49,901 nt of DNA. Source: a virus. Under the pieces are notes generated by a model. It saw nothing but the letters and a program-made list of their open reading frames with translations. It ran no database searches and was not told where the DNA came from. Shown in pieces: positions 13,813 through 49,901 of the stretch. The position numbers and the translations under genes are program-made. Each line of letters begins with the position of its first letter. Within the stretch, counting starts at the first letter, position 1. The DNA lies in the IMG/VR virus record IMGVR_UViG_3300040751_001964, positions 1 to 49,901 of that record. One strand, 5' to 3'.

Positions 13813-15885
13813 TCATTTCCTAAACCTAATTGTTAAGCCGCCTGATATGTTTAATGGTCCTTTTAATATGCGCTTCTTTATAGCGGAACTAGGATGAGGC
13901 GTTGTAATCGGATAAGCAGCTAGATATGCAACTCTAGCATCACCGCCTTGTAATCTATTACGATCGCTCCATTCTGTGCCTTCTGCTGTAGTGCCTCTAG
14001 TATCATCATAAAAGTCTGCACTATCTTGGATCTCTACATTGTTTTGTATCCAGTTGCGTATATCATTATAATTCCAGCCTCTGTTATATTGTAACACTGT
14101 AGCTAAAAAACCTGCTGCTACAGGACAGGCTGCTGAAGTTCCGCTAAACCGTGTATCTCTACAATCACTTGATGTTGATAGCCCAGTATAACTATCATCA
14201 TAACGTGCAACATCTGTGCCGTATGTTCCTACTGTTGCAGCTAACGTACCATCTGCAGGTGCATATAAATCAATAGCATTGCCTGTATCGCTGTAATTAA
14301 CTTTACGTTCCTTTCCACTACCAAATGCATCATCTAATGCACCGATATTGATTACAGGAAATTTTACAGTAGTATTTCCTTGGCTAGTTTGAATTTCTGT
14401 TTTGCCTAGGTGTTGTGGAAATCCTCGTCTATTTGTAGTTCCAGTAACAGAGTAGCCAAATTCACTAAATGAATTTTCATATATGCCTTCGTCAACAGCA
14501 TCGCCAATATGATTATCATAATTTGGATCGTCTGGATCGACCTGCATTTGTCCAGAATTACCTGCTGCTGCTACAAAGATAAATCCACTATCCACAAGTT
14601 CTTTACCTGCCTGTGTCATAGAGTTGTCATACATTTCTGATTTCCAACGTCGAGTGCCTAGAAAAGTATCTCCGTCCAATCCCATGTATTTCATAAACTC
14701 TGGTTCATCATTTACTCCGGAGTAAGTAGTACCAGTGGCACTTTGAAAGAAATAATGACTTGCTACTTTTCCTGCTCTATATCCCCAACTGTTTGATCCT
14801 ATAGTTGGATCTTGTGTGCCATATAACGGATTCACAGGTTTATATTGATGAAATAATTTACATAGATCAAACCCTCTTTCTATACTGCCTGCACTTCCTG
14901 AACCGTAAAGATTTAAATGCCATTTATTACAATTATATGCCCAGCCATGTGTTCTTCCGAATATTAAACTACCACACTGTGTTCCATGATCTGCTGTGGC
15001 AGTTGAAGGGTATGCTGTGTTAGATCCGTGAACGCCTGCCCTAGTATAACTACTACTTACAGTTACAGTACCAATGCTTGAAAAAGCCGCAGAACGTTCA
15101 CTGCTATTTCCCCACCAAGTTCTTGCAACACTTTCAACAGGCACAATAGTACCGTCCCAACGTGTTTCTAATCTGTTGTCAGGGTCAGCATCAAACCAGT
15201 CTGGATCTATATAGTATGGGCCATCTAATACAACATCTAATACATCGCAGTATCCATTACCTGGTAATACATTCCCGCCCACATAGTCAGTTGGATTCAA
15301 TGGTGTGCCTGCATCAAAATTTACTCTATTTGGATTAATAAATTCAACGTGTCCTATCCAAGTACCGTTGTCCATACATATTACATCAACATGTTCTCCT
15401 GCACCTTGTTGTACAGGATCCCTATCAATATAATCAAAATTATTTAAACCACCGCTTATCCAAGGATTTCTTTTTTGTTTACAACGTATCAATTGATTGC
15501 TTGCACGGCTTACGTCTGCTGATCCGTCTTCAGTAAAAGATCCTAGTATAGCACCATTATTTGCCCAGAATTGCCAGTTTTTAACTGTTTGTCCATAACG
15601 AGAATAATTTTCAGCGTTAATATCTAATCTTAAGTCGTCATCAGTTGCATTAAAAATTTCAGGATATCTTGCAGGCGTTAAATTTATAAAATGTATTCTT
15701 GCATCTTCGCCTACCGTGGCAGCTTCTTCGTCTGTTAATAAAAACTCACCTCTTGTAGGACTATGATCTTTATGGTCTTCACAAGAAACATTTCTACCTA
15801 ACCAGCTGCCGTCTACTAATGCATCGTGTACTTCATCAAACAGCTCAGCTGAGTGTGTTGCAAGTGTATAATATTTTTCGCTCAT
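13813..15885 (-). CDS. Subtilisin-like serine protease (S8 family), virion-associated candidate
   Basis: A 690-residue protein with a complete subtilase triad: Asp172 in ICMDNG, His300 in DHGTQCGSLIFG, and Ser584 in SGTSAACPVAAGFL. The oxyanion Asn is N443 in VAAAGNSG. There is no signal peptide. About 165 N-terminal residues precede the catalytic domain, a large insert separates Asp and His, and the basic tail KRILKGPLNISGG follows the domain. It lies between gp4 and a repeat-rich fibre protein in the late structural block, with ribosome-binding site AAGGTGAT. It could mature virion proteins or digest host surface proteins on entry; the T4 prohead protease gp21 is a different family. Confidence 0.88.
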   Translation of the reverse strand: MSEKYYTLATHSAELFDEVHDALVDGSWLGRNVSCEDHKDHSPTRGEFLLTDEEAATVGEDARIHFINLTPARYPEIFNATDDDLRLDINAENYSRYGQTVKNWQFWANNGAILGSFTEDGSADVSRASNQLIRCKQKRNPWISGGLNNFDYIDRDPVQQGAGEHVDVICMDNGTWIGHVEFINPNRVNFDAGTPLNPTDYVGGNVLPGNGYCDVLDVVLDGPYYIDPDWFDADPDNRLETRWDGTIVPVESVARTWWGNSSERSAAFSSIGTVTVSSSYTRAGVHGSNTAYPSTATADHGTQCGSLIFGRTHGWAYNCNKWHLNLYGSGSAGSIERGFDLCKLFHQYKPVNPLYGTQDPTIGSNSWGYRAGKVASHYFFQSATGTTYSGVNDEPEFMKYMGLDGDTFLGTRRWKSEMYDNSMTQAGKELVDSGFIFVAAAGNSGQMQVDPDDPNYDNHIGDAVDEGIYENSFSEFGYSVTGTTNRRGFPQHLGKTEIQTSQGNTTVKFPVINIGALDDAFGSGKERKVNYSDTGNAIDLYAPADGTLAATVGTYGTDVARYDDSYTGLSTSSDCRDTRFSGTSAACPVAAGFLATVLQYNRGWNYNDIRNWIQNNVEIQDSADFYDDTRGTTAEGTEWSDRNRLQGGDARVAYLAAYPITTPHPSSAIKKRILKGPLNISGGLTIRFRK

Positions 15886-19958: not shown

Positions 19959-19966
19959 TATTTATC
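19959..19966 (-). promoter_or_regulatory. Late promoter GATAAATA before gp19
   Basis: A minus-strand octamer overlaps the gp18 stop codon and lies 22 bases before the gp19 ATG; the leader contains AGGAGC. Confidence 0.7.
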
Positions 19967-22900
19967 ATCCCGCCGATGCTATCTCGCCTGTGTTTTTAAG
20001 TCTTAATGGAATGTATATAAATTCAATTGACTTAACAGGTTCTATAGCAATATCTACGTAAAGTTCATTACGATCGATTCTCGAAGGTGTATTGTTTGTC
20101 TCGTCACATACAACTAAGAAGTCATACAGTGCTCTTTGACCTACAAGTTCTAATAGTAAACTTTCAACTTGTTGCTTAATCTCATCTCTAGTGATCTTGT
20201 CATTAGGTTCAAAGATATAAGGTTTTGCAAGACTGTTTAGTTGGCTACGTAAGTATACAACTAATCTTGCAACGTTGATTCTATCTAAAGAACTTGCACC
20301 TCTTGCACGAGTTTTTTGTCCATAGTTAACAAGGCCTGCACCTGTGATAAATGTAATTGGATTAACACTTTGTGCATAAAGTGTGTCTCTTTGTCCTTCA
20401 TTAAGTGCTACACTTACAAATTCTCCTTCGCTATTAATATAGCCTGTTGAACTTGCATTAGTAATGCCGCCACGTCTTGTACCTGCTGGTGCAAACCATG
20501 GATAAGAAACTTGATCGCTTAGTGCAATAGTTCTTAGCATCATGTGGCTTGGTGGAACAACTACATTGTTACCTGCATTGTCGCTTGTAAAGCCCCATGG
20601 GTAAAATACACCTAAGTATTCATCATTAGTAACAAGTCCGGTGTCGTTATCTTCGACTGCTACACGAACATTAGTTGCCCATTCATTTAATGAAGTTGCA
20701 TCAGGTAGTAATCTTGCTGGTGAATCACCTACAACAAATGCTGTTAATCCTCTATCAGCATTAAGAGTAATTAATTCTCCAATTAATTCTGAATAACCTG
20801 GTGCTGCAATTAGGTTAAATCTGCGAGCATCTTCGTTTCTAATTTCGTCGTTGCTGTTAACAACTGCTTGTAGTGCTTGTACAACAACTTTACGTTGTGC
20901 TTTACGCCCAAAGCTACCTGACCCATCTTCATTATTTCCGCTTACTGTAACCCAACGATCTTTTGCATAACCAGACATAAGTTCATCATTAAATCTTGCA
21001 TTAATGTCATTTACATCAATATAATTTTTATTGAATTGTTTTACGTTAAATCCGCTTCTGCGAGTATTGAATAACAGTGTTCCTTTTGGATACAGTGCTG
21101 GGTCTGGAGCATCTGGATCTAAGTAATTACTAGTAAGTAATGATTTAATAGTTGCTTTTGTGTTGCCTGTAGCACCACTAGATCCGTAACGTGCATCAGC
21201 AAATAAGATACCATTTTCTGTAGTTTGATCTCCGTTGTCTACAAGTGCCCATGTATCTGTAGCTTTCTTGTAGCGATAAATTACAGGATAGTTTTCTAAG
21301 TCTGAAGTATCTAACCATAAGTCACCGTCAACTAGTGCAGCACCGTCTGATTGTACAGTTGGTTGACTTGCACTTACAATTGGTCCGTTTACATCAGTAG
21401 GATCAGTTAGCGAATATACTGGGCTAGTACTGTCTTTATAGCCTACCCATACACTACCGTTATTGATCATAACATCAACTTCGTCAACAATTGAATTGTA
21501 CCATAATGTTCCCTCAGTTGAAGCTTGTGTAACTTCTGTAGCAGATGCAGTATAGCTTAATTCTTCCCAGTTACTTGCACGATATTGTTTTTGTACTGCT
21601 ACACTATTATCTACACCAGGTTCTGCAGAAACAAATCTTGTTCCTGTTTTTGCTGTGTAGTTATATTCTGAAATACCTAAACGAGAAATAACATCGCCGC
21701 CTGGGCTATCAGTTCTTTCTGTAAATCTAATTTCTCCGCCAGCGGAATGTTTGATTACAATTCTGTTACTCGAATCTACTTCAGCATTTACATACGGTAT
21801 TTTAGCACTTGTAATTGCTTCAGCAATTGCTGCTGCTAAAGCTGTAGCATCTAAACTGCCTGGAAAATCGATACTTGTTATACCCGGTGCTGTTGCACCA
21901 CTGAAAGTATCTGATCCTGGAGATGTTGATTCAATATCAAATTTGTAATTGCCTAATGGAAAACTAGTTGTGTCTATTATTCCTGAAGTAACTGTTGTTG
22001 CTCCAACTGCTCCTCTACGTAATACTTTAAAAGTTGCTAAAGGAACTGTATCTCCTGCAACATTACTGTTTACATACAAGTCGCCGATGTTTAAAGAATC
22101 ACCGCCGCCTGTTCTATCTAACTCTAATAAAGCAGCTTCTGCTGTAGGATAAATTGGAGCTTCAACAGAATCCCATAGTGCTGTATTTGAATTCCAAAGT
22201 TTTACTCTCCAGCGAGCACCTAAATTAGGAGTAGTAGTTTTTAACCAAACACTACCTGTTGCTCTACCATTATATCCTGAAGTTGTTTTAAAGCTATCAG
22301 GAACATTTGTGTGCTTACTAATTTGTAATAGTGGGGGTAAATATGTTCCGGCTGTTATGCCTAATTCTGTAAGTGCTACTATATCTCCACCTGTGCCTGC
22401 TGCAATAACAATTTCGCCTGCTTGTGTACTGTCGCCTGATCCTGAGCTTGTACCATCGCTGTATAACTCAAGTTCGCCGTTTACTTCTTCTGCACTAACG
22501 CCTGAAATTGATAAGCCATTAATTGTAGTAGCTAATGTAGCAATACTACCACTAACGTTCACTGTAGTACCGTTAATTGTCATTGTCGCACTTGTAAGTG
22601 TTCCTGTAGTTTTAGAACTTGTAATAGTTGGCCAAGATTCTTGCCAACCGTCGCTACCAACTTCAACCCAACCTGTTGTAGCTCTATACCAAATTCTGTT
22701 TATTGTTGAAACTGAAACTACAGCATAATCACCTATTGTGCCTACACTGTTTTTAGGAGCATACGGTGCGCTTCCTGATGTTTGGTTAACATCTGTAATT
22801 ACCAATGGAACTTTGTTTGTAAATGTTTGACCACCGGTTGTACTTTCTGCGTTGTTATTCCATTCTTGAATACCGTATAATGACGCTGTAGTATCTAACC

Positions 22901-23306
22901 AATATGTTCCATCTTCTGGATTAGCAGTAGGTGTGTCAGATCTTGGTGTTAGTTGTCCTAAGTCTACATCTGCTCTTACTACCCATGCTCTGTTGCTTAC
23001 TCCTAAGTACGAGTATGCTGCTTGTAAGCCGTATTCATTTAGTTCAGAACCATGAATTGGACTGTTGTTTGTGTCTACTTGGAATGTAGGATCGCCAAAT
23101 GTTTCAGCTAGGTCGCGCTGCGATGTAAGCAAATATGGTTTACCAGCATTTGCCTTTAGTGTGCCTACCGCAGTACCCGAACCTGAAGCATTTAATTTAT
23201 TTTGTGCCGATGCTACAAAAATTACTGGTACTGTACCTGGTTCAGCGGGTGTGTAGAAACTTTCATCTACTACGCTAACCTGTACACCTGGTGATGTTAA
23301 TGCCAT
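19965..23306 (-). CDS. 18: Tail sheath protein gp18 (extended)
   Basis: A 1113-residue contractile sheath protein; T4 gp18 is 659. The N-terminus MALTSPGVQVSVVDESFY is the typical sheath start with the PGV motif. The C-terminal core (residues about 800-1113) includes DRGLTAFVVGDSPARLLP, PPSHMMLRTIALSD and FEPNDKITRDEIKQQVESLL, and ends with YVDIAIEPVKSIEFIYIPL. Residues about 135-700 contain several beta-rich insertions (for example repeated DGTYWLDT/GDLWLDTSD-type elements), probably exposed on the outside of the sheath. An AGGAG ribosome-binding site precedes the ATG. Confidence 0.93.
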   Translation of the reverse strand: MALTSPGVQVSVVDESFYTPAEPGTVPVIFVASAQNKLNASGSGTAVGTLKANAGKPYLLTSQRDLAETFGDPTFQVDTNNSPIHGSELNEYGLQAAYSYLGVSNRAWVVRADVDLGQLTPRSDTPTANPEDGTYWLDTTASLYGIQEWNNNAESTTGGQTFTNKVPLVITDVNQTSGSAPYAPKNSVGTIGDYAVVSVSTINRIWYRATTGWVEVGSDGWQESWPTITSSKTTGTLTSATMTINGTTVNVSGSIATLATTINGLSISGVSAEEVNGELELYSDGTSSGSGDSTQAGEIVIAAGTGGDIVALTELGITAGTYLPPLLQISKHTNVPDSFKTTSGYNGRATGSVWLKTTTPNLGARWRVKLWNSNTALWDSVEAPIYPTAEAALLELDRTGGGDSLNIGDLYVNSNVAGDTVPLATFKVLRRGAVGATTVTSGIIDTTSFPLGNYKFDIESTSPGSDTFSGATAPGITSIDFPGSLDATALAAAIAEAITSAKIPYVNAEVDSSNRIVIKHSAGGEIRFTERTDSPGGDVISRLGISEYNYTAKTGTRFVSAEPGVDNSVAVQKQYRASNWEELSYTASATEVTQASTEGTLWYNSIVDEVDVMINNGSVWVGYKDSTSPVYSLTDPTDVNGPIVSASQPTVQSDGAALVDGDLWLDTSDLENYPVIYRYKKATDTWALVDNGDQTTENGILFADARYGSSGATGNTKATIKSLLTSNYLDPDAPDPALYPKGTLLFNTRRSGFNVKQFNKNYIDVNDINARFNDELMSGYAKDRWVTVSGNNEDGSGSFGRKAQRKVVVQALQAVVNSNDEIRNEDARRFNLIAAPGYSELIGELITLNADRGLTAFVVGDSPARLLPDATSLNEWATNVRVAVEDNDTGLVTNDEYLGVFYPWGFTSDNAGNNVVVPPSHMMLRTIALSDQVSYPWFAPAGTRRGGITNASSTGYINSEGEFVSVALNEGQRDTLYAQSVNPITFITGAGLVNYGQKTRARGASSLDRINVARLVVYLRSQLNSLAKPYIFEPNDKITRDEIKQQVESLLLELVGQRALYDFLVVCDETNNTPSRIDRNELYVDIAIEPVKSIEFIYIPLRLKNTGEIASAG

Positions 23307-37814: not shown

Positions 37815-38524
37815 AAAGTAAAATTGAAGATTTTATAGGTATATATGAAAATGATATAAAGCTAGGCATTTTTGGTGATAGTACAGCAGACCCAGTTGAG
37901 TGGTTAAACCACAGTTGGGTTGAATTATTAGCAAAAGAATATAAATTTACAAATTTTGCTAAACAAGGTAGCTCACTACTTTATACATATAACAATATTT
38001 GTATTGAACACCATCAATTTGATAAAATAATTGTATTCATTCCTCCTGTTGGTCGTCTTTGGGCGCCTAATTGTCTTATAAATCAGCATTTCTTAAATCA
38101 CAGAACAGTAGAATTATATTACGAAAATGCAGATTATTCTGATAGAAAAATATTAGATTCAATAAAAAATTATTTTATATATGTATCAACGTTTGAAAAA
38201 GAAATTTTGCAGCATAACGCAATAGTAGATAGTATAAAGTGTAAAATTCCAAACGCACTAATTATTCCTGTTACTAAACATTCGATAGAAAATTTTGAAG
38301 GTGTTTGTATGCACGACATAAGTATAATTGATTATGAATTTTATAATGTACATCCGTATACTCCAGATTTTGGAAGGACTTGCCATATGAATAAAGAAAA
38401 TAATCAAATTTTTTATCAAAAGATAAAACAATGGTTAGATAGCAATGATTTTATTTTATCTATAGATGATTTTACAACTCCAGTAGAGACAAAAGAGGAA
38501 CTATTTCCAAATGAAAAATATTGA
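37811..38524 (+). CDS. SGNH-hydrolase-like protein
   Basis: A 237-residue protein. The block I-like GIFGDSTADP (residues 18-27) has the nucleophile Ser of the SGNH/GDSL family; FAKQGSSL and IIVFIPPVGRLW follow as in blocks II and III, and DFGRTCHMNKENNQIF near residue 190 provides a late His. It might remove or transfer acyl groups on glycans, as SGNH O-acetylesterases do. It is embedded between oxygenase D and halogenase 2 with overlapping ends. Block III is weak, so enzymatic activity is uncertain. Confidence 0.6.
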   Translation: MKSKIEDFIGIYENDIKLGIFGDSTADPVEWLNHSWVELLAKEYKFTNFAKQGSSLLYTYNNICIEHHQFDKIIVFIPPVGRLWAPNCLINQHFLNHRTVELYYENADYSDRKILDSIKNYFIYVSTFEKEILQHNAIVDSIKCKIPNALIIPVTKHSIENFEGVCMHDISIIDYEFYNVHPYTPDFGRTCHMNKENNQIFYQKIKQWLDSNDFILSIDDFTTPVETKEELFPNEKY

Positions 38525-40073
38525 TCAAAATTTTAAATTTGTAATTGTTGGTGGCGGAAGCGCAGGTTGGATTTCTGCTCTTTTTGTTAGAGCAAACTTT
38601 CCTAATAGTAAAATCACTGTAATACAAAGTAGCGAAATTGGAATATTAGGTGCAGGCGAAGGAACTACTCCTCACATAATAGATTATCTAGACGAAATCG
38701 GTGTTCCTATTAGTAGACTCGTTAAAGAAGCCAAAGCAGTTCTTAAAAGCGGAATAAAATTTTCTAATTGGAACGGTGATAGAAAATATTACTATCACTC
38801 TTTTATGGATATACCAGATTTAGACCATACAATTGCTAGCGAGCTAAATCACACTAGATATCCTTTATTAGACTTAGAAGTAATTGCAAACAGAGGTTCA
38901 TTAGACGACATTGGATTTAATGCATTAGCTAGCGACAGAAACTGTGTTAGATTTGTTCCAAATGCAGATGCTACAAATAAAGATTTAGATCCCATTTTAC
39001 ACTTTACTAGACTAGGGAGAACATCATTACACTTTGATGCTAATCTACTAGCAGAATGTTTAGAAGGCATAGGTAAAGAAAGAAATATCGAAGTTATTGA
39101 CGGCATTGTTTCTGATTTTACATTGGATAACAATGGTAATATTGTAACTGTTAATATCGGAGAAAGACAGATTAAGTCAGACTTTGTATTTGACTGTTCG
39201 GGATTTAAACGATTAATTATAGGTAATTTATATAAAACTCCTTGGAAAAGCTATAAAGACTATCTTCCGGCAAAGCGAGCTATGCCATTTTTTATCCCGA
39301 ATAATTCTCAAGTTATTCCTCCATACACCGATTCAACTGCAATGAAGTGGGGGTGGATGTGGAAGATCCCTGTGCAGGGAAGATTTGGATGCGGTTACGT
39401 TTATGACAGTGACAGAGTAACTGACGATGAAGCTAAATTAGAATTAGATCAAGAAATTGGTTTTGAAGTTGAAGTTCCTAGATTAATAAACTTTGAACCA
39501 GGACGATACGAAAAAATTTATGAAAAAAATTGTTTAGCTATTGGATTAAGTTCAGGATTTATCGAACCCTTGGAAGCTACATCTATTTGGACATCTTTAA
39601 TGATGCTGAATGCATGGATTGAAAATCCATCTGCTATTACACACGATGATGAGTTGGCAAGAGATAAAGTAAACAAACGCCACACTGATATGAACGATAA
39701 TACTTTAGGATTTGTATACTTTCATTATATAACAAAAAGAGAAGACACAGACTTTTGGAAAAAATTTACTGTGGACAACAAAATACCAGAATCATTGCAG
39801 AAGTTAATAGAAGAATCAAATCATACTATACCAAGCTATGATATGTTCTCAAATATCGGACTAGACTGGGCTGCAAAAAGTTTTCTTGCCTGTGGAAATG
39901 GACAAAAGTTTTTTAATCCAGAACATGCTAAAAAATTATTTGAATCTTTCTACAATGGTAGACGAAAAGACGAATATGATCTTTTAAAATATCAATATTT
40001 TAAAAATTTAAATTTAAATTTACCTTTAGTTACTGATCATTATTCGTTTATAGAATATTTAAGGAATAACTAA
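38511..40073 (+). CDS. Flavin-dependent halogenase-like protein 2
   Basis: A 520-residue halogenase-family flavoprotein. GGGSAG is at 14-19, the catalytic Lys is K79 (KAVLKSGIKFSNW), WMWKIP is at 282-287, and E355 lies in FIEPLEATS. It is closer to halogenase 3 than to halogenase 1 (shared GIKFSNW, RFGCGYVY/RHGCGYVY and EPGRYEK/DPGRSEK blocks). The start overlaps the SGNH gene by 14 bases, and the stop overlaps oxygenase E (TAATG). Confidence 0.88.
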   Translation: MKNIDQNFKFVIVGGGSAGWISALFVRANFPNSKITVIQSSEIGILGAGEGTTPHIIDYLDEIGVPISRLVKEAKAVLKSGIKFSNWNGDRKYYYHSFMDIPDLDHTIASELNHTRYPLLDLEVIANRGSLDDIGFNALASDRNCVRFVPNADATNKDLDPILHFTRLGRTSLHFDANLLAECLEGIGKERNIEVIDGIVSDFTLDNNGNIVTVNIGERQIKSDFVFDCSGFKRLIIGNLYKTPWKSYKDYLPAKRAMPFFIPNNSQVIPPYTDSTAMKWGWMWKIPVQGRFGCGYVYDSDRVTDDEAKLELDQEIGFEVEVPRLINFEPGRYEKIYEKNCLAIGLSSGFIEPLEATSIWTSLMMLNAWIENPSAITHDDELARDKVNKRHTDMNDNTLGFVYFHYITKREDTDFWKKFTVDNKIPESLQKLIEESNHTIPSYDMFSNIGLDWAAKSFLACGNGQKFFNPEHAKKLFESFYNGRRKDEYDLLKYQYFKNLNLNLPLVTDHYSFIEYLRNN

Positions 40074-40663
40074 TGATTGCTACAGTAGGTAATATACTTC
40101 CAAAAAAATTAGAAAATGACATCGAACATGTTGTTACAGAAATACCGTATTATTACGGATCTAATACTTCATATGGTAAAGAAGATCCGTTTTTTGATCA
40201 TTACTCTAAACTTACACAAAACATTAATATTGTAGAGAACGGACAGTTTGTACATTCAGTTTTAGACGAAGGAGTAATTGTTTCTAATTTACACGGACTC
40301 TTATATCCTGTTTTATATCAATTCGCCGATAAAGCGGGAATTACTGTTAATGCTATTACTAGAATAAAGATTAATCTTTTATTACGAGATAAAACGTTTA
40401 AAGAATTTAACTATAATTTTCCTCATTCTGACAGAGGTAACGGAGAGAAAGTTTTTATATATTATGTAAATGATAGTGACGGTGATACTGTCATGTTTAA
40501 CGAGTATGATGATTACAAAACTATACCCGATACATTTACAATTGTAGATAGAATTACACCTAAGAAAGGTACTGGTGTATTTTTCGAAGCAAATAGATTT
40601 CATGCTAGTTGTAATCCTGCAATTTCTCAACATAGATATATTATAAATTACAATTTCAAATGA
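40073..40663 (+). CDS. 2OG-Fe(II) oxygenase-like protein E
   Basis: A 196-residue protein of the YYVNDSDGDT group. Likely ligands are H118-S-D120 and H177, with R188 anchoring 2-oxoglutarate; the shared block is IYYVNDSDGDTVMFNE at 129-144. Together with oxygenase F it is a tandem paralogue pair of equal length (196 residues each), coupled by an ATGA overlap. Confidence 0.8.
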   Translation: MIATVGNILPKKLENDIEHVVTEIPYYYGSNTSYGKEDPFFDHYSKLTQNINIVENGQFVHSVLDEGVIVSNLHGLLYPVLYQFADKAGITVNAITRIKINLLLRDKTFKEFNYNFPHSDRGNGEKVFIYYVNDSDGDTVMFNEYDDYKTIPDTFTIVDRITPKKGTGVFFEANRFHASCNPAISQHRYIINYNFK

Positions 40664-41250
40664 TATTAAAAAATGTTTTAAAAGATAACGATTACTATAA
40701 CCTGAGTCAATTATTGTCAGGAGTAGATTTTCCTTGGTATTATCAACCTGACATTGCGTTTACGAACTTTGATGATCATACAAATGATCCAAATGTTTTT
40801 TCAAGCTACGGTTTTACTCATGTAGCATGGGATTGTGATCACGGCAAAGTTTCTGATGTTATACACTTAATTTCTCCAATTGCTGAAAGTTTTGAAGAAA
40901 CAACTAGAATTAAAATCAATAACTTTCTTAGAATTAAAATAAATCTTCAGACTCCGTTGATAGACTATACATATGATAACTACAATGGCGCTCACATTGA
41001 TAGGTTCGAACCACATAAAACGATTATATATTATGTAAATGATAGCGACGGTGATACTGTTATTTTTAACAACATATACGATCCTAATGATAAGACTACA
41101 TGGCATCTGAATACAGACTTAAAAATTAAAGAAAAGATAACTCCTGTTGCAAACTCTTTATACTATTTAGAAAACGGATTAACTTACCATTCAGGTAGTA
41201 ATCCTATCAAGTCGCAAAGAAGAATAACAATTAATATTAACTTTAATTAA
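40660..41250 (+). CDS. 2OG-Fe(II) oxygenase-like protein F
   Basis: A 196-residue protein with H112-I-D114, H177 and R188 as likely active-site residues and the shared block IYYVNDSDGDTVIFNN at 123-138. It is the tandem duplicate of oxygenase E. The N-terminal half (PWYYQPDIAFTNFDDH) differs most and may set substrate specificity. Confidence 0.8.
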   Translation: MILKNVLKDNDYYNLSQLLSGVDFPWYYQPDIAFTNFDDHTNDPNVFSSYGFTHVAWDCDHGKVSDVIHLISPIAESFEETTRIKINNFLRIKINLQTPLIDYTYDNYNGAHIDRFEPHKTIIYYVNDSDGDTVIFNNIYDPNDKTTWHLNTDLKIKEKITPVANSLYYLENGLTYHSGSNPIKSQRRITININFN

Positions 41251-41251
41251 C

Positions 41252-41842
41252 ATGAATGATATAATAATAGATAAATGGTTTTCAAATCCTGTATGGGAAA
41301 CATCGATAGATATTAACAATGCTGATCTTATTGATTATGCATATGATTTAAAATCTAAAAAATCTGGAATTCAAAAGTCAAACAGAGGAGGATGGCAATG
41401 TGCTGATATAGAAAATCCTCCAGTAGAATTTACTCGTCTTATAGATACAATTAATGAGACATTAATTAGAGTACACGAGACTATGGGATTAAAGAAAGAA
41501 TTTCCGTCTTATGTAACAGAAAACTGGATTAATATTAATCAGCCTCAAAGTTATAACCTTAGACATTTGCATCCTAGAAGTTTGTTTAGCGGAGTATATT
41601 ATACCAAGGTTCCAGAAGGTGATTGCGGCGATATTATTTTTTATAGAGATAATCTTATGCTTAGTTATTTGCCAAGTTATATCGTTGAAACATGGAATGA
41701 TCTTACAAGCGGTACTGCTACATATAAGCCTAAAGAAGGAATGTTGCTAATATTTCCTAGTTGGCTTGAACATTCTGTAACTGCTAATTTTACAAACGAG
41801 GATAGAATTAGTATTAGTTTTAATACTAATTATGATTTTTAA
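41252..41842 (+). CDS. Putative 2OG-Fe(II) oxygenase G (TIGR02466-like)
   Basis: A 196-residue protein of the phage/marine-bacterial family of putative 2OG oxygenases. Key parts are WININQPQSYNLRHLHPRSLFSG (begins near 92; H105, H107), GDCGDIIFYRD, then MLLIFPSWLEHSV (H174) and R185 in EDRISISFN. It is the last plus-strand gene of the operon and converges on its paralogue H with a 17-base overlap. The iron triad is less certain than in the other oxygenases because an Asp is not at the usual HxD place. Confidence 0.72.
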   Translation: MNDIIIDKWFSNPVWETSIDINNADLIDYAYDLKSKKSGIQKSNRGGWQCADIENPPVEFTRLIDTINETLIRVHETMGLKKEFPSYVTENWININQPQSYNLRHLHPRSLFSGVYYTKVPEGDCGDIIFYRDNLMLSYLPSYIVETWNDLTSGTATYKPKEGMLLIFPSWLEHSVTANFTNEDRISISFNTNYDF

Positions 41843-42389
41843 TCACTTTTGAATTAAATGCTATAGAAACTCGTGAAGTATTTGGGGCAGTAGTACGAAC
41901 ATAATGTTCTAGATGAGATGGAAATATTATTAAGTTTCCTGCTTTAGGAATAGTTCTATAATTATGCGAATTAAATGCATTAAACTCTTTTACTAATATT
42001 GGGTGAATGCTATGACAAAGACCCTTATCAGGATTTGTAAAAATTAAATCTCCACAGTTATTGTCTGCTATAACATAGTATACAGCCGAAAATACGTTTC
42101 CAGGGTGACAATGTACCGAATCAATATTGACGTTATTATTAATGTTTATCCAAGCATCGTTTATAACATGATAATATTCTGCAGACAGTCCTATAGTTTT
42201 ATGTAATTCATTAAATTTATCTTGTACCATTAATGATAATGATTTTATAGGATCAACACTTAAATCTAGAAAATCAGACTGCATTGCATTTTGTTTTACT
42301 ACACTGTTTGCATATTCTAGTAAGCTGTTATTGTCAAAATTTAATTGTTCGACTGCTAAAAAATTTGAAAATATTGTCTCTATAACCAT
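41826..42389 (-). CDS. Putative 2OG-Fe(II) oxygenase H (TIGR02466-like)
   Basis: A 187-residue protein related to oxygenase G: WININNNVNIDSVHCHPGN (begins near 80; H93, H95), NNCGDLIFTNP, LIIFPSHLEHYV (H162) and R173 in SRVSIAFN. It is the third gene of the minus-strand halogenase 3 transcript, and its ATG overlaps the stop of the 133-residue gene. The two paralogues G and H now face each other, pointing to a duplication with inversion. Confidence 0.72.
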   Translation of the reverse strand: MVIETIFSNFLAVEQLNFDNNSLLEYANSVVKQNAMQSDFLDLSVDPIKSLSLMVQDKFNELHKTIGLSAEYYHVINDAWININNNVNIDSVHCHPGNVFSAVYYVIADNNCGDLIFTNPDKGLCHSIHPILVKEFNAFNSHNYRTIPKAGNLIIFPSHLEHYVRTTAPNTSRVSIAFNSKVIKNHN

Positions 42390-42790
42390 CAGATAATTTT
42401 CTTGTTTTCTGCATGTCCTAAATTTTGGTCGTTAAACTTATCCATAAATCTAAAATAGGAACTTTTGCTGTATGGAATTTTTAACTCGTCTAATCTTTCT
42501 AAAACTTGAGGCTGAACAAATCTACCATAGAATGCTTCTAAATCTTCTCCCCAATTATGTCGAATAACATAATACTCTGCATACGGACACCAAGCAGCAT
42601 AAACAGCTACTCCTCCTCCACGTTCCAGGATTACTTCCCAAATTTCAACGTCCTCTATATCCATAACCCTATCATAGCTCCAGTCTGGACTAGGAGGTAG
42701 GATAACTTTATCCGAATCCATATTATTATCATTCCAAACTTCGTCGCCAAAATCTTTAAATATGTTCTGAGTAGTTTTAAATTGGGGCAT
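42389..42790 (-). CDS. Conserved hypothetical protein
   Basis: A 133-residue acidic protein with an IWEVILERGGGVAVYAAWCP segment at residues 49-68, then a helical end. I recall this pattern in several T4-like cyanophages, without a function. It lies between halogenase 3 and oxygenase H with a ribosome-binding site AAGGAAT. It could be a small accessory subunit, but nothing in the sequence proves it. Confidence 0.65.
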   Translation of the reverse strand: MPQFKTTQNIFKDFGDEVWNDNNMDSDKVILPPSPDWSYDRVMDIEDVEIWEVILERGGGVAVYAAWCPYAEYYVIRHNWGEDLEAFYGRFVQPQVLERLDELKIPYSKSSYFRFMDKFNDQNLGHAENKKII

Positions 42791-42798
42791 GTTATTCC

Positions 42799-44220
42799 TT
42801 ACTGATAATTAGTAGACATATGTCTAATAAATTGTGTTTCTGCTGTATTGTACATATTAGTTTGTATTAAATCTATATACGCTGATTCTTCATTAAGCAT
42901 ATCTAGCCCAGCCATACTCCAATTCCATAAGCCTATTGCAGGTGCACCAAAGTTATTTGCTATTTCAAAATAACTTACTAGTTTATTCTGTGACCTTTTT
43001 ATAATATGTTCAGCAAAGGGGCTAATAATAGAATTTTCTTTTATGTGCTTCCAGAAAGGTGTATCGTTTCTGGGTCCTTGATAATGCATTGATACAAAAT
43101 CTAAATTTAAATCATAAAAATGGGCTGTTCGTCGATTATATGATTCTTGGTTTTCTTTTGTAATTGTTTTAGATGCATCGATGTCTAAAAAGTCGTTTAC
43201 AAACAATAATATTTGTGCAACAGTTGTATGAATGGAAGTAGCTTGCAAAGGTTCAACAAAACAACTTGCTAGACCCAAAGACAGTACATTTTTCTCCCAA
43301 AACTTTTCTGATCTGCCAGGATCAAATTGAATATTTTTTATAGGAGTAATTTCTCTTTTTAATAATTGTTCTACTTCTTGCTTTGCTTGATCTGCAGATA
43401 TAAAATTATCGTTGTATACATACCCACAGCCGTGTCTAGTTTGTAAAGGAATATCCCACATCCAACCTGACGACAATGCTGTTGCGGTTGTCCACGGTTT
43501 ATTTTCAATCTCATTGTCTCTTAATATAAACGGAATTGCTGCGTTACAAGGTAAGTATTTACTATACGATTTCCAGCCTATATTTAATTTTTTCATCAAT
43601 ACCCTAGCAAATCCGCTACAATCGATAAAGAAATCAGCGTCTAGCTTTCTACCATTATCTAAAACAAGTGACGTTACGTGTCCTGTTTCACTGTCTAAAA
43701 TACTATCTTTAACAGTTGCATCAATATGTGTAACATTTTTTTGAATACATTTTTCTTTAAAGAATTGTCCTACCTTATGGGCGTCAAAATGAAATGCATT
43801 AAATATATTATAGTTACGTTCTAATTCGTAATCAAGACCTATTTTAGAAGCTAGATGAGCTTTATCTTTTCCAAATTTGTGTAATGTATATTTAAAGACA
43901 TAATCATCCATTAACCCGGCTGTGGGGCTTCCGTCAAGGGGGGTAAAAAAAGAAGTATTATTTCCTGTCCAATTACTAAACTTTATGCCTATTTTATTTG
44001 TAGCATCGGTTCTAGCAACAAACTCGTTTATATCTATACCAGTATGAAAATATCTTCCTGCTATAAGATCAGTAAAAAATCCAGTAGAACCTTCGCCTGC
44101 TCCTATAATTCCTATTTCTGATGAGTCTACAACGGTAATAGTATGACCTGGTCGCGACATACATAATGTATATGCCGCTAACCAACCTGCTGTTCCGCCG
44201 CCTAAAATTGTAATCTGCAT
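42799..44220 (-). CDS. Flavin-dependent halogenase-like protein 3
   Basis: A 473-residue halogenase-family flavoprotein with GGGTAG at 7-12, catalytic Lys K76 (DATNKIGIKFSNW) and WMWDIP at 253-258. In the block that is EPLES or EPLEAT in the other two, it reads FVEPLQATS, so Q326 replaces the conserved Glu. The protein is shorter at the C-terminus. It begins its own transcript: the late-like ATTAAATA ends 5 bases before the ATG. It is directly downstream of the glycine-rich adhesin genes on the same strand. Confidence 0.88.
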   Translation of the reverse strand: MQITILGGGTAGWLAAYTLCMSRPGHTITVVDSSEIGIIGAGEGSTGFFTDLIAGRYFHTGIDINEFVARTDATNKIGIKFSNWTGNNTSFFTPLDGSPTAGLMDDYVFKYTLHKFGKDKAHLASKIGLDYELERNYNIFNAFHFDAHKVGQFFKEKCIQKNVTHIDATVKDSILDSETGHVTSLVLDNGRKLDADFFIDCSGFARVLMKKLNIGWKSYSKYLPCNAAIPFILRDNEIENKPWTTATALSSGWMWDIPLQTRHGCGYVYNDNFISADQAKQEVEQLLKREITPIKNIQFDPGRSEKFWEKNVLSLGLASCFVEPLQATSIHTTVAQILLFVNDFLDIDASKTITKENQESYNRRTAHFYDLNLDFVSMHYQGPRNDTPFWKHIKENSIISPFAEHIIKRSQNKLVSYFEIANNFGAPAIGLWNWSMAGLDMLNEESAYIDLIQTNMYNTAETQFIRHMSTNYQ

Positions 44221-44264: not shown

Positions 44265-45461
44265 TTATTGATTTTTATATCTAATGACTACTAAACCAGG
44301 ACCACCTTCGCCAGATTGTGTGTTTGACCAAAAGCCGCCTCCGCCGCCACCGCCTGTATTAGCAGTACCTGGATTCCCCGCGTTAGAACCTGTTCCAGCT
44401 TGTCCGCCACCAAAAGCATTTAGTCCGCCACCGTGTGCTCCAGATAGCCCATAGTGACCGTACCCACCGGGACTGTGGGTGCCTGCGCCGCCGCCGCCCG
44501 CATAACGAGTGAGTGTTCCTGATATTTGACTTGCTAGTCCTGAGCCACCGGTGCCCATTTCGTTACCGCTAGATGTTGGCTTACCTGAACTACCTGCGCC
44601 ACCGCCGCCACCGCCGCAGTGAATAGTACTAGAACCAGCTGCCCAACCAAATCCGCCTCCGTGTGCTCCAAATCCTCCTGGGTGTCCTTGTCCAACTGTT
44701 CCGCTACCGTAACCGTTTCCTTCCATACTAATATGGTCGTTATTGTTTCCAGTAGGTGTTCCTTGTAGGGTTTCGTTTGGCATTCCTGCTAGCCAAGGAT
44801 GTGCTGCGCCTTGACTTCCATGACCGCCAGGTGCTTGTGGCCACCAACCGCCTTCGCCACCGGAACCTGGAGCATGTCCTCCTGGACCACCGCCTCCAGA
44901 ACCTCCACTACAAAATCTAATAACACTATGATTTGATGTGTAAGAACTTCCTCTACCGCCGCCGACAGCATTATATTGTTGAGGTATGCCTGGACCTACA
45001 ACACTGCTAGGATTGCCCGGATTCTGATTATTAGCGTTGTGTTGAGTTTCACGTGATCCGCCAGTACCAACATTTATAGTATAGTTGCCTGCTGGTAAAC
45101 TAGCTTGTGATTCGTATATCATGCCGCCAGCGCCGCCGCCTCCACCGATCTGTGCGCCACCGCCACCGCCGCCTACAACTAGCACTTCTACTTGTCCTGG
45201 ATATTGCATAGTAAACGTTGTAGATCCACTAGTAAATGTGTGTATTCTGTAGCCGCCACTTGTTGTTATAGATCCGCCAGTAGCATATGCAGAACCTTCT
45301 AATGTAACCCATTGAGTACCATTGTATACTTCGTTTCTAGCAGTATCTGTATTATATCTCATCATTCCTGGTTGAGGTGTGCTAGGTCTTTGAGAAGTAT
45401 TACCGCTCGGTAACTGTATAAATCCTGTATCGTTTACTGTAACATTTTTTAATTGTGCCAT
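44265..45461 (-). CDS. Glycine-rich adhesin-like fibre protein 1
   Basis: A 398-residue protein. The N-terminal 70 residues (LKNVTVNDTGFIQLPSGN ... VYNGTQWVTLEG) form a fibre-attachment module; GSITTSGGYRIHTFTSG follows. From residue about 90 the sequence is dominated by Gly runs (GGGGGG, GGGGGAGG and others) ending in GPGLVVIRYKN. Poly-Gly regions of this type form the tip adhesins of T-even phages (gp38) and related receptor-binding proteins. It is the third of three tandem paralogues. Confidence 0.8.
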   Translation of the reverse strand: MAQLKNVTVNDTGFIQLPSGNTSQRPSTPQPGMMRYNTDTARNEVYNGTQWVTLEGSAYATGGSITTSGGYRIHTFTSGSTTFTMQYPGQVEVLVVGGGGGGAQIGGGGGAGGMIYESQASLPAGNYTINVGTGGSRETQHNANNQNPGNPSSVVGPGIPQQYNAVGGGRGSSYTSNHSVIRFCSGGSGGGGPGGHAPGSGGEGGWWPQAPGGHGSQGAAHPWLAGMPNETLQGTPTGNNNDHISMEGNGYGSGTVGQGHPGGFGAHGGGFGWAAGSSTIHCGGGGGGAGSSGKPTSSGNEMGTGGSGLASQISGTLTRYAGGGGAGTHSPGGYGHYGLSGAHGGGLNAFGGGQAGTGSNAGNPGTANTGGGGGGGFWSNTQSGEGGPGLVVIRYKNQ

Positions 45462-45464
45462 TTT

Positions 45465-46553
45465 TTAAACCCTATACTTTACTATTACTACACCTGGACC
45501 GCCTGAACCTGCAGGGTTTTCGCCGCCTGGATGACCACCGCCACCGCCACCGCCACCGCGATTTACACCGCCAGCAGTTGCCACTTGTGCTCCATTTTTA
45601 CCACTATTTCCGGTGCCATCTTCTGCACCTCCTGGATCAGGTCCGTGACCGTATTGTGGAGCAATGTGTTGGCCACCTGCTCCGCCAGCAGCATAAATTA
45701 CGTTACTACCACCGATTGCATTAGTAATTCCTTTACCACCAACAACACGCACCCAGTTTGAATATCTACTAATACCTCTAGATCCTGCGCCGCCACCTGC
45801 ACCGCCTGCGTGTGTTGCGCCTGAGCCTTGGCAACCTGGATTTGGATAGCCTGGACCACTACCATGGTGTCCATAACCTCCTGGATGTCCTTGTCCTATT
45901 TGACCTGTGCCGCCTGGGTGTTCTCCTGGGTAACTAGTATATACTGTACCAGAACTACCATTGCCGCCTGGCCCGCCACCGCCAGAACCTCCGCTCATAC
46001 CTCCAACTGGGGTTCCGCCAGCATAGTATCCGCCTTTGCCACCGCCTGTAGCAGTTATGCTTGCTGTAGGTCCGACAAACGTTGATGGACCGCCTGGTGT
46101 GCCTTCGTCTGAATAGTGGTGGTTGCCGCCATTACCGCCGCCACCTCTAGTAATATTATAACTGGCTCCACCTTCAATTTTCATAGCTGATTCGTATACA
46201 TAACCGCCTGCACCGCCGCCGCCACCGATAGGGGCACCACCACCACCAGCGCCTACAACTAGTATTTCTGCTCTTCCAGTGTAGGGTGCTGTAAATGTAC
46301 CGCTATTAGTAAATGTGTGTATTCTGTAACCGCCTGCTGTGGTTATGCTTCCTCCAGTTGCAATAGTACCGCCGCTCGAAGAACTGATGCTACCATCTAC
46401 TGATCTCCATACTCCGTTAGTGTATTGTTCAACTTTATTTGTATCAGTGTTATATCTTAGATCGCCATTAACACTAGCTCTTTGTGCAGTATTTCCGGTA
46501 GCTGCTTGTAAAGATCCTGTATCGTTAACCGTTAAATTTTTTAGTGTTGCCAT
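45465..46553 (-). CDS. Glycine-rich adhesin-like fibre protein 2
   Basis: A 362-residue paralogue of the flanking genes with the same layout: LKNLTVNDTGSLQAATGN, then VEQYTNGVWRSV, GSITTAGGYRIHTFTNSG, and Gly-rich repeats to GPGVVIVKYRV. The Gly-rich loops differ from the neighbours in composition (His, Tyr and Pro placement), which is where receptor contacts would be expected. The ATG follows the upstream stop by 2 bases with ribosome-binding site AGGGAT. Confidence 0.8.
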   Translation of the reverse strand: MATLKNLTVNDTGSLQAATGNTAQRASVNGDLRYNTDTNKVEQYTNGVWRSVDGSISSSSGGTIATGGSITTAGGYRIHTFTNSGTFTAPYTGRAEILVVGAGGGGAPIGGGGGAGGYVYESAMKIEGGASYNITRGGGGNGGNHHYSDEGTPGGPSTFVGPTASITATGGGKGGYYAGGTPVGGMSGGSGGGGPGGNGSSGTVYTSYPGEHPGGTGQIGQGHPGGYGHHGSGPGYPNPGCQGSGATHAGGAGGGAGSRGISRYSNWVRVVGGKGITNAIGGSNVIYAAGGAGGQHIAPQYGHGPDPGGAEDGTGNSGKNGAQVATAGGVNRGGGGGGGGHPGGENPAGSGGPGVVIVKYRV

Positions 46554-46555
46554 GA

Positions 46556-47581
46556 TTAATCCCTATATCTTACAATAACTACGCCAGGTCCACCCGGGCC
46601 ACCGCCTTGTGGTTCTGGACTGTACGGGCCGCCACCTCCACCGCCACCTAAGTTTGTTCCGCCTGCTTGACCGTTTTGTCCTGGTAATGTGTTTCCTAAA
46701 CTTCCTCGTCCTGCGAGAGTAGCAACGCCGTGATTAGGGCTGTGATAACCTCCACCACCGCCGCCAGCTCTCCAAACTACACTGCCGCCGATATTAGAAG
46801 CCATTCCTTCGCCGCCGCGACCTTGTTGGTTTCTATTAGATCTACCATATCCCATAGTTCCGGCTCCTCCACCACCGCCTCCGCCGTAGTGTGTTCCGGT
46901 AGGTGTGCCATTGTAGTGGACGCCTATTCCTCCTGGGTGGCCTTCGCCTGCTGTACCAGCTGCTCCTAGATGATAAGTCTGTGGGCCGCCGTTCCAGCCC
47001 GGGCCGCCGCCACCTGAGCCGCCGCCGCTATTAGGTTGGCTGCCTGGCGGATAGTGACAACCTCTTCCGCCGCCTGTTGTAGTAATTCCGACTGGGGTCC
47101 CGCCGCCGAATGTTGACGGATTACCTGGAGTTGCGTTGTTAGCACTGTGACTAGAACATCCGTTGCCGCCTGTTCCAATTACAGTTGGGTATGATGTTCC
47201 GGCTACTACGGGCACCCCGCTTACGTAAGCATAACCGCCTGCGCCACCACCGCCACTAATACTATGGCCGCCGCCACCTCCGGCAACAACTAGCACTTCT
47301 ACTACACCGTCTTTCGATGGAACAAATGTATCAGTGCCGCTAGTAAATGTATGTATACGGTATCCGCCACTTGTTGTTATGGAGCCGCCTGTACTACCAC
47401 TACCTGCGGCTGCTTCTTCAACCCTAACCCAGGCAGTTCCGTTCCAATATTCGTTTGAAGAAATATCAGTATTATATCTTAACATTCCGACTGTAGGACT
47501 GCCCGGTCTTTGAGCACTATTACCACTTGGTAATCTAATAAATCCTGTATCGTTAACTGTAAGATTTTTTAACTGAGCCAT
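46556..47581 (-). CDS. Glycine-rich adhesin-like fibre protein 3
   Basis: A 341-residue paralogue, first in transcription order of the three. It has LKNLTVNDTGFIRLPSGN, YWNGTAWVRVEE, GSITTSGGYRIHTFTSG, and the Gly-rich region ending GPGVVIVRYRD. The start overlaps the stop of the S74 fibre gene by 1 base. All three share the same N-terminal module, so they probably attach to the same place on the virion. Confidence 0.8.
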   Translation of the reverse strand: MAQLKNLTVNDTGFIRLPSGNSAQRPGSPTVGMLRYNTDISSNEYWNGTAWVRVEEAAAGSGSTGGSITTSGGYRIHTFTSGTDTFVPSKDGVVEVLVVAGGGGGHSISGGGGAGGYAYVSGVPVVAGTSYPTVIGTGGNGCSSHSANNATPGNPSTFGGGTPVGITTTGGGRGCHYPPGSQPNSGGGSGGGGPGWNGGPQTYHLGAAGTAGEGHPGGIGVHYNGTPTGTHYGGGGGGGAGTMGYGRSNRNQQGRGGEGMASNIGGSVVWRAGGGGGGYHSPNHGVATLAGRGSLGNTLPGQNGQAGGTNLGGGGGGGPYSPEPQGGGPGGPGVVIVRYRD

Positions 47582-48453
47582 TACGTTTTCCTTTTTAGGG
47601 TTTCTATTTCGTTGTTAAGTGTTTTTATTGCTTCAATAAGATACGCAGTTAGTTTAGTATATTTAATACCTACAACATCACCATTAGTATCTCGTGTAAC
47701 TAACTCTGGTAGTACTTTTTCAGTCCATTCAGCAATTAGTCCACTTTCGTGTTCTTTACTGTCTAAACGATCGTATGTAACACCTTTTAATTGTAAAATT
47801 TTATCTAGGGCGTCTTGTATAGGATTAACATTTTCTTTTAATGCAATACTTGAAGTTTCAACAATACTTACTGCTGTCATTTGTCCGCCGATTCCAGCGC
47901 CGCCTGCAACGATTAACGCACCTGTACTAGTTGAACTTGACGCTGTACTTGCTGATAATGTAGTATTACCAACAGTCAATCTACCTGTTGCGGAGCTTGC
48001 ATTAGGAGTATAATAAAATCTAGTGCCGTCTGCTACACTTAACGTATTTTCAGAACCGGTACTTTGATCTGACATTGCAATAAAATAATTATTGCTATCT
48101 GCTGTAGTTCTATTTGTAACTGCTAGTCCAGCTGCGGTCCAACTTAAATTTCCGTTGCCGTCAGTTTTTAATACTTGATTAGCATCGCCGTCATCTGCTG
48201 GCAATGTTAGGGTATAGTTTGCTGACAGTGCCGACGGTGCTTTAATAGCTGCATAGTTAGTATCGCTGTCGCCGAATCTAAAACCAGCATTTGAACTGGT
48301 ATACAAGTCTTTAGTAAACTCTGTAACACCTGTACCGTCTGGAGTAAAAACAATATTTGTGTTAGCTTCAACTGACTCAAATGCGTTAGCTAGTGTAGCC
48401 AAGTTTCCTAACACTTGGCCTCCTACTCTTCCTGATGTAATTCTTCTTGGCAT
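47581..48453 (-). CDS. Fibre protein with C-terminal S74 intramolecular chaperone
   Basis: A 290-residue fibre. The middle carries TLTLPADDGDANQVLKTDGNG-type repeats. The C-terminal about 90 residues are a peptidase S74 (endosialidase-type) chaperone: S201-x4-K206 in SSIALKENV fits the Ser-Lys dyad, followed by LKGVTYDRL, SGLIAEWTEKVLPELV and KLTAYLIEAIKTLNNEI. This domain helps the fibre trimerise and then cuts itself off. The gene precedes the three adhesin genes. Confidence 0.88.
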   Translation of the reverse strand: MPRRITSGRVGGQVLGNLATLANAFESVEANTNIVFTPDGTGVTEFTKDLYTSSNAGFRFGDSDTNYAAIKAPSALSANYTLTLPADDGDANQVLKTDGNGNLSWTAAGLAVTNRTTADSNNYFIAMSDQSTGSENTLSVADGTRFYYTPNASSATGRLTVGNTTLSASTASSSTSTGALIVAGGAGIGGQMTAVSIVETSSIALKENVNPIQDALDKILQLKGVTYDRLDSKEHESGLIAEWTEKVLPELVTRDTNGDVVGIKYTKLTAYLIEAIKTLNNEIETLKRKT

Positions 48454-48463
48454 GACTTATTCC

Positions 48464-48799
48464 TTACGCTGTTGCGGTTTCTATACCGTATACCATTACT
48501 GCTGTGTTTGCAGCAGACGAACGTGCATATACTTGTCTGCTTGCATCAATAACAAGGCCAGTTCTTTCTAATACACCGTTTGGTAGTATTTCTGTTTCGT
48601 ATTCTAAATAATCATCCGCAGCAGGTATTGTAACACCTAATGGGTCTGTTTTTGCTACTGCTAGTCTAACAGTAATGCTAGTTGCATTTTTATTACAGAT
48701 ACTTACAGTAACAACACTGAACGTATCTGCTGGTACAAGATAAATTCCTGTGTATGTTGTTGCTGCTAGATCCGCTGATCCTAAAATTCCGTTTGCCAT
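48464..48799 (-). CDS. Small virion structural protein
   Basis: A 111-residue beta-rich protein (MANGILGSADLAATTYTGIY start) with a hydrophobic core VVTVSICNKNATSITVRLAV. I recall proteins like it in T4-like cyanophage virions, unnamed. A good ribosome-binding site (GGAGA) is present, and it lies in the fibre transcript between a large structural gene and the S74 fibre. Confidence 0.65.
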   Translation of the reverse strand: MANGILGSADLAATTYTGIYLVPADTFSVVTVSICNKNATSITVRLAVAKTDPLGVTIPAADDYLEYETEILPNGVLERTGLVIDASRQVYARSSAANTAVMVYGIETATA

Positions 48800-48819: not shown

Positions 48820-49901
48820 TTATCTCAAGAAGTAGTTGTATGCTAGCGGTAGTCCAAGTACTGTTCCGTTAAACACTACGTTTGCATTAATATTTATCGG
48901 ACTTCCGCTAAGTGTTGTAATAGTGTTACCGCCAACAAATATATCGCCAGCTGTAACGCTATTTACGTTTAGTGTTGCACCACCGCCACCAATTTGTGAC
49001 TCAATATATGCTTTAATTGCACGTTGAGTTGGTACTACGGTATCACTGTTTGCAGTAAAGAACGGGTCTGTACTAAACTCGTTAATACTTGCCGAGTTAC
49101 CTCCTAGTGTAACTTCACCTAGACTTAGTTCTTGTAGACCTGCAATGTTAAATGCATCAGCATTCAATGTTGCAACACCAGTCGATTGCTCAATTGTAAA
49201 CAAGTCACCTACTCTAAAGTTACCGTCTTGGTCAGTAGCAGTGTAGAATACTCGTCCGCCGTTAAAATCATTAGTTTCTTTGGCTTGGTCTGGTGTGTTA
49301 ACAGGTATACCTGGGTAATTAGTTTCTGTAAATCCTCCAGTACCGATATCTAAGAAATCGTGTCCTGTTAGACGTACTTGCGAGAATCTAATACGCATTT
49401 CTACATCATCACCGTCAGGTAAATCATCTTCTACTGAAATATTTGGTGATATTTGTAAGAAGCCGGTATAACTGCCGTCTTCTGTACCTAAGAAGCTAAC
49501 AACATTAACAAGTTTATAAAACTCTCCAGGTAAGTTAGCAAACTCAACGTTTGAACCATTTACTGGACGAGATGTCATTCTACGTACAGCAATGAATGCT
49601 CCAGCTTGTGGGAAGTCTGCATTACCGTTTGAATTCTGTCCATCAATTTCGGCGGCTGCACTAATAAATCCTGTTCCTCTATTAACAAATGTTGGATTAG
49701 CTAATACTCCACTTCCAATTTGCGGAGTTAGAACAACGTTGTCAACGTTGTTAGGATCTACTATAGTAACTGTCGGTGCGCTTGTGTATCCGCTGCCAGG
49801 TTCTGTAATTCTAATAGCAAAAACTTGCTCGTTTGCTACGCTTGCTCTTGCTTTTGCTGGTGTATTAATCTTAGCAGTATTACCGCCTGTTCCTGCTGCG
49901 T
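48820..49901 (-). CDS. Large structural protein, 3' part
   Basis: The frame is open from the window edge to the stop at 48820, with about 360 residues visible; ATG 49578 is internal, because the frame continues upstream without a stop. The part seen includes ITEPGSGYTSAPTVTIVDP, a Gly-rich beta repeat common in marine phage fibre and baseplate proteins, then YTATDQDGNFRVGDLF, PTQRAIKAYIESQIGGGG and the end YNYFLR. The N-terminus is outside the window. It is probably a baseplate or long-fibre component. Confidence 0.72.
   Translation of the reverse strand, partial: AAGTGGNTAKINTPAKARASVANEQVFAIRITEPGSGYTSAPTVTIVDPNNVDNVVLTPQIGSGVLANPTFVNRGTGFISAAAEIDGQNSNGNADFPQAGAFIAVRRMTSRPVNGSNVEFANLPGEFYKLVNVVSFLGTEDGSYTGFLQISPNISVEDDLPDGDDVEMRIRFSQVRLTGHDFLDIGTGGFTETNYPGIPVNTPDQAKETNDFNGGRVFYTATDQDGNFRVGDLFTIEQSTGVATLNADAFNIAGLQELSLGEVTLGGNSASINEFSTDPFFTANSDTVVPTQRAIKAYIESQIGGGGATLNVNSVTAGDIFVGGNTITTLSGSPININANVVFNGTVLGLPLAYNYFLR

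Follow-up and report, generated by a model that had tools for sequence, protein, structure and literature searches.

Most phage fibre tips of solved structure are either homotrimers or a trimer capped by one adhesin. Glycine-rich fibre heads and S74 fibres are already familiar, and so are adhesin genes in tandem. The tail fibre gp24 of cyanophage Pam3, the product of a single gene, is a homotrimer with an alpha-helical N-terminus whose TNF-like strands continue distally as a glycine-rich lattice, and which has a separate chaperone, gp25 (PMC9608196). In T-even phages such as S16, T2 and PP01, the adhesin gp38 is encoded by one gene behind the fibre gene and has glycine-rich motifs and loops at the fibre tip, these loops being hypervariable (PMC12892980). 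The D4 domain of CBA120 TSP3 is the C-terminal end of a homotrimeric glycosidase spike, in which three D4 copies build a beta-prism II round the threefold axis, with a core of Asn, Trp and Pro (PMC6517402). Three consecutive gene products of mycobacteriophage Mysterious, gp35, gp36 and gp37, form one heterotrimer docked by its N-terminal arms (PMC13252515).

The window analysed here, by which we mean the entire 49,901-bp IMG/VR virus fragment, carries three tandem genes for glycine-rich proteins, A, B and C. Unlike Pam3 gp24, this array has three genes, a beta-rich N-terminal module (N-module) and an S74 fibre gene upstream; it differs from T-even gp38 in having three genes instead of one and loops which are conserved. 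The literature that we searched, with most subscription journals outside its scope, yielded no description of this cassette or of a heteromeric glycine-rich tip.

The source is a large environmental phage with a contractile tail. Encoded in the window are a terminase of the T4 type, a tail sheath of 1113 aa and a gp9/10-like protein, and a T4-type gp23 capsid gene is present on a 185-kb sister contig. The tail sheath (19965-23306) is very long and is matched over its whole length by phrog_10581, and a 690-aa protein encoded amid tail and packaging genes (13813-15885) contains a subtilase (S8) domain. A nucleotide search of phage records gave no match. psbA, a sign of a cyanobacterial host, is absent from the window and four sister contigs, all of which are fragments, and a host search through genome contigs returned only glycine-rich relatives scattered in MAGs. 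Among these are relatives of B on Parcubacteria and Elusimicrobia MAG contigs (L135-L148), several per bin, in which the match covers the first strands and parts of the module.

Layout and predicted folds of the array

The original prediction of three tandem glycine-rich paralogues was borne out, as the ORFs occupy exactly positions 44265-47581 on the minus strand (Table 1), glycine makes up 29-31% of each protein, and full-length pairwise BLOSUM62 scores are 730-781, far beyond chance. The intergenic gaps are 3 nt and 2 nt, each gene is preceded by a Shine-Dalgarno-like sequence, and promoter-like matches are no more frequent than expected by chance. All three proteins match PF21722 (Gly_rich_2) with 56.1 bits for A (residues 82-340), 39.4 for B (83-361) and 50.3 for C (78-344), against a curated cut-off of 24.3, as well as phrog_2295 (E about 1e-40 to 1e-55). 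The trio accounts for all PF21722 genes on the 185-kb sister contig, which has one S74 gene.

Table 1 Features of the array and of the fibre genes upstream, in window coordinates.
Feature	Position	Strand	Evidence
Gene A, 341-aa glycine-rich putative fibre-tip protein	46556..47581	-	ORF; PF21722 E 6.8e-15; AF2 model; Pam3 gp24 fold match; orthologues in seven distinct arrays
Gene B, 362-aa glycine-rich putative fibre-tip protein	45465..46553	-	ORF; PF21722 E 9e-10; AF2 model pTM 0.81; fold match to Bxb1 tail tip and Pam3 gp24
Gene C, 398-aa glycine-rich putative fibre-tip protein	44265..45461	-	ORF; PF21722 E 4.1e-13
N-module of A, residues 1-54	47420..47581	-	Module alignment; local fold match to TSP3 D4
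N-module of B, residues 1-52, divergent	46398..46553	-	Alignment; local fold match to TSP3
N-module of C, residues 1-54	45300..45461	-	Alignment
TNF-like/glycine-rich head of A, residues 72-341, from GGYRIHTFT	46559..47368	-	Pfam; strands in model
TNF-like/glycine-rich head of B, residues 74-362	45468..46334	-	Pfam; strands in model
TNF-like/glycine-rich head of C, residues 69-398	44268..45257	-	Pfam; alignment
290-aa fibre protein, C-terminal S74 endosialidase-type chaperone domain	47581..48453	-	PF13884 E 1.3e-11; fibre/baseplate PHROG matches
111-aa fibre-related cassette protein	48464..48799	-	phrog_11338 tail fiber E 2.9e-9; position conserved
Large fibre protein, C-terminal part, runs off window	48820..49899	-	phrog_9851 tail fiber E 1.1e-51; relatives

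The array closes a fibre cassette in which a large fibre gene, encoding about 2100-2256 aa in relatives, is followed by the 111-aa gene, the S74-chaperone fibre gene and A-B-C, with gene A directly downstream of the S74 gene and without a gap. Beside the cassette lie a tryptophan-halogenase gene (PF04820, 42799-44220), its relative at 38511-40073 and, within 38511-44220, several small genes including 2OG-Fe(II) oxygenases; halogenase/oxygenase-like genes also adjoin the array in many relatives.

An identical N-terminal module of 70 residues had been proposed for the three proteins. A shared module does exist, but it comprises about 54 residues and is homologous rather than identical, with mean within-genome identities of 67% for A-C, 48% for A-B and 51% for B-C. 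The module of B is the odd one out, lacking the RPxSP segment and having a conserved signature of its own. The GGYRIHTFT block is, as predicted, identical in A, B and C, and lies outside the N-module, in the strand with which the glycine-rich TNF-like domain opens.

In the AF2 models of A (pLDDT 71, pTM 0.66) and B (pLDDT 82, pTM 0.81), the N-module finds a local fold match in TSP3 D4 (5w6f, 6nw9; probability 1.00 for A and 0.96-0.97 for B), with 5w6f superposing over 40 residues at 1.2-1.6 Å, while the sequence match is weak (E 0.19). In the module alignment N37 and W51 are invariant and P26 and P29 nearly so, which is consistent with a core of the TSP3-D4 type but does not prove it. Given this likeness to a trimeric beta-prism cap, the N-module is probably a trimerising foot, located at the N-terminus, in contrast to the C-terminal D4. 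On the contig of one relative (G001, L006 contig), the N-module is present twice in each of two ORFs of great length, 2111 and 1711 aa (54351-54956 and 60825-61421), indicating that it is a general fibre module serving more than one place. In a 335-kb virus contig (G008, L121 contig), six N-module matches lie at 161453-173084, apparently in two groups of three.

A Foldseek search of the PDB with both models placed the Pam3 fibre and the Bxb1 tail-tip protein at the top, followed by the TNF-like glycine-rich domains of LTK/ALK. The Pam3 fibre (7ypx, 7yfw), TNF-like and glycine-rich as A and B are, was the best match of A and the second-best of B (7ypx: E 5e-6 and 1.9e-4, respectively; probability 1.00), with TM-scores of only 0.31-0.36. 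The match to Bxb1 (9d93 chains Qa/Qb, E 2.9e-5) rests on the glycine-rich body, this protein being the siphophage tail tip of a phage with a mycobacterial host. 'Gp49' of 9d83 was also matched (E 5e-5). The best PDB-chain sequence match of A and C, a Kelch-like designed protein, was judged to be due to chance, and the sequence search gave nothing useful otherwise.

Because of their position behind the large fibre and S74-chaperone fibre genes, their shared N-module and the Pam3-fibre-like fold of A and B, A, B and C look like tail-fibre tip proteins, in agreement with the adhesin identity originally assigned to them. The more specific analogy with T-even gp38 was not supported, although the array shares with it the glycine-rich motifs with loops and a position behind a fibre gene. 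A search of the window and two sister contigs for PF05268 (gp38) returned nothing at E <= 1, S16 gp38 was absent from the 50 best PDB fold matches of the A or B model, and the conservation pattern described below also argues against membership of that family.

Conservation in close and distant relatives

The window's family provides seven distinct complete arrays (window/L001, L002/3/6, L004, L005, L007, L008 and L060), the last from a sister line in which B is 58% identical and the same A-B-C set is present. In 7/7 the three genes occur 1:1:1 and in fixed order, and their lengths are nearly constant (A 341-346, B 356-370 and C 396-407 aa). In this family the A-B-C set thus behaves as one fixed unit, and such constancy of genes and order suggests that the three are assembled together into one tip instead of serving as exchangeable spares.

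Identities outside shared glycines were computed on six genomes. Between orthologues they reach 0.71 (A), 0.65 (B) and 0.69 (C) in the N-module and 0.78, 0.64 and 0.62, respectively, in the glycine-rich body, so that conservation of the bodies is similar to that of the module. Between paralogues they are 0.44-0.64 in the N-module and 0.23-0.26 in the body, which confirms that the glycine-rich regions differ and indicates an old divergence of the bodies, which have been maintained ever since. The conserved residues include paralogue-specific ones, the heads being conserved yet distinct, and comparison of orthologue identities revealed no hypervariable loops of the gp38 kind in the family bodies. 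Body dN/dS is mostly 0.05-0.17, these ratios being approximate since dS is near or past saturation in several pairs; A, B and C are each under strong purifying selection. In a tree of the bodies of 16 glycine-rich trios, A, B and C are each monophyletic (support 100/98, 100/100 and 100/99). This tree was used instead of a best-hit position matrix, which had many off-diagonal entries, mostly glycine-rich matches across distant clades.

The original prediction called for variation among related phages and swaps of the glycine-rich regions, and allowed for possible recombination between the copies. Given a collinear trio, separate A, B and C clades and conserved bodies, variation is largely lacking, which the original prediction itself had named as a refutation, and no swap was found among the seven close arrays. 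Recombination or gene conversion between the copies was likewise rejected: the longest exact shared DNA is 16-22 nt, the permutation effect is tiny, and paralogues are only marginally closer within genomes than between them, so that homogenisation is negligible. Body exchange does take place over long time scales, as distant phages have different bodies, glycine-rich or not, at the same cassette position.

Tandem genes that begin with the N-module are found in many phages, and isolates with such an array include the cyanophages S-ShM2 and S-MS29 and the Methylophilales phage Melnitz. When gaps of at most 400 nt were allowed, the 55 dereplicated multi-gene arrays comprised 34 with three members, 15 with two and six with four or more, and three stays the commonest multi-gene size under other gap and edge settings. 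Grouped into lineages by body identity (shared 6-mers put nearly all arrays in one group and were therefore not used), the arrays comprise 12 trios, 10 pairs and 4 larger sets, so that the preference for three is not significant (p = 0.42). In 36/55 arrays by hand count, no more than about 25 nt separate the array start from the end of a gene for a relative of the S74 fibre protein, often preceded by the large fibre and ~110-aa genes, whether the bodies are glycine-rich or not.

In two arrays (L029/L062) B is absent and two A-type genes accompany C, three genes thus being kept despite the replacement of B. According to the body tree, L070 and the clade of L026/L073/L074/L075/L079/L082 each have separate trios of their own, which would reflect separate expansions or strong homogenisation. 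The trio is not universal, as there are arrays of two, two cyanophage arrays with five and seven module genes, and arrays mixing glycine-rich with other bodies of very different lengths. The second gene of one two-gene array (L027, 7003-8967) is twice as long (654 aa, glycine-rich) and may hold two heads.

Possible composition of the fibre tip

The reading that we prefer, with a probability of roughly 0.45, is a single tail-fibre tip to which A, B and C contribute as co-expressed but non-equivalent subunits in a fixed ratio, the simplest form being an A-B-C heterotrimer. The N-modules would trimerise, probably as a beta-prism, and dock on the fibre whose end is formed by the upstream S74 protein, while the TNF-like/glycine-rich heads, of the Pam3 gp24 kind, would show their conserved loops to the cell surface, the three proteins acting jointly. 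The proteins would be present in the virion, and receptor binding by the heads is inferred from fold and cassette context. The observations behind this reading are the constant gene order and joint conservation of the trio, purifying selection, the fold class of A and B, the cassette context, the 2-3 nt spacing of the genes and the predominance of three-gene arrays. A heteromeric tip is favoured because the module probably trimerises and the heads belong to a trimeric fold class, and also by the repeated return to three genes and the odd N-module of B. The Mysterious heterotrimer, a siphophage baseplate accessory complex, offers a precedent. Several points weigh against a heterotrimer: counted by lineage, trios hardly exceed pairs, cyanophage arrays reach five and seven genes, and mixed bodies of unlike length do not suit a packed heterotrimeric head. 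Moreover, the analogues Pam3 gp24 and TSP3 are homotrimers, and the low TM-scores to Pam3 and the weak sequence match of the module to TSP3 also count against it.

A rather unlikely alternative, equal to the original proposal without the swapping, is that homotrimers of A, of B and of C compete for one docking site, so that each particle would bear tips of different kinds, directed at three receptors. The homologous N-module common to all three, the adhesin-type fold with conserved and distinct heads, and the replacement of bodies between distant phages at the same cassette position would all suit competing homotrimers. Against them, the seven related arrays show no turnover, loss or change of order, and hypervariable loops are absent; a conserved signature particular to the module of B is unexpected if all three fit one site equally, and the recurrence of trios also speaks against them.

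Three homotrimers could instead each have a fixed place or role of its own, for instance as a stack along a single fibre or on separate appendages, with only some of them binding the receptor. One-to-one conservation with paralogue-specific conserved residues, the presence of the N-module within very large ORFs and the mixed-body arrays that have two members or exceed three are in line with such an arrangement, which we nevertheless regard as unlikely, as it explains neither why three is the commonest number nor why three are kept when an A-type gene replaces B. That A, B and C are not virion tips but assembly factors, as T4-type gp38 is, or non-expressed duplicates or decoys, is highly improbable in view of strong purifying selection on all three, the fold match to virion fibre proteins and a layout suited to co-transcription with the fibre genes.

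A wider version of the heteromeric reading, which we put forward as doubtful, is that obligate three-chain heterotrimers of three tandem paralogues form a type of fibre tip with three different fixed heads each, the trio state having been reached several times independently. If the heteromeric reading is true, a conserved three-gene tip whose number is kept after the replacement of a member would amount to one tip with three fixed, different heads, and multiple adhesin genes of environmental phages would often be parts of one device rather than spare tips for other hosts.
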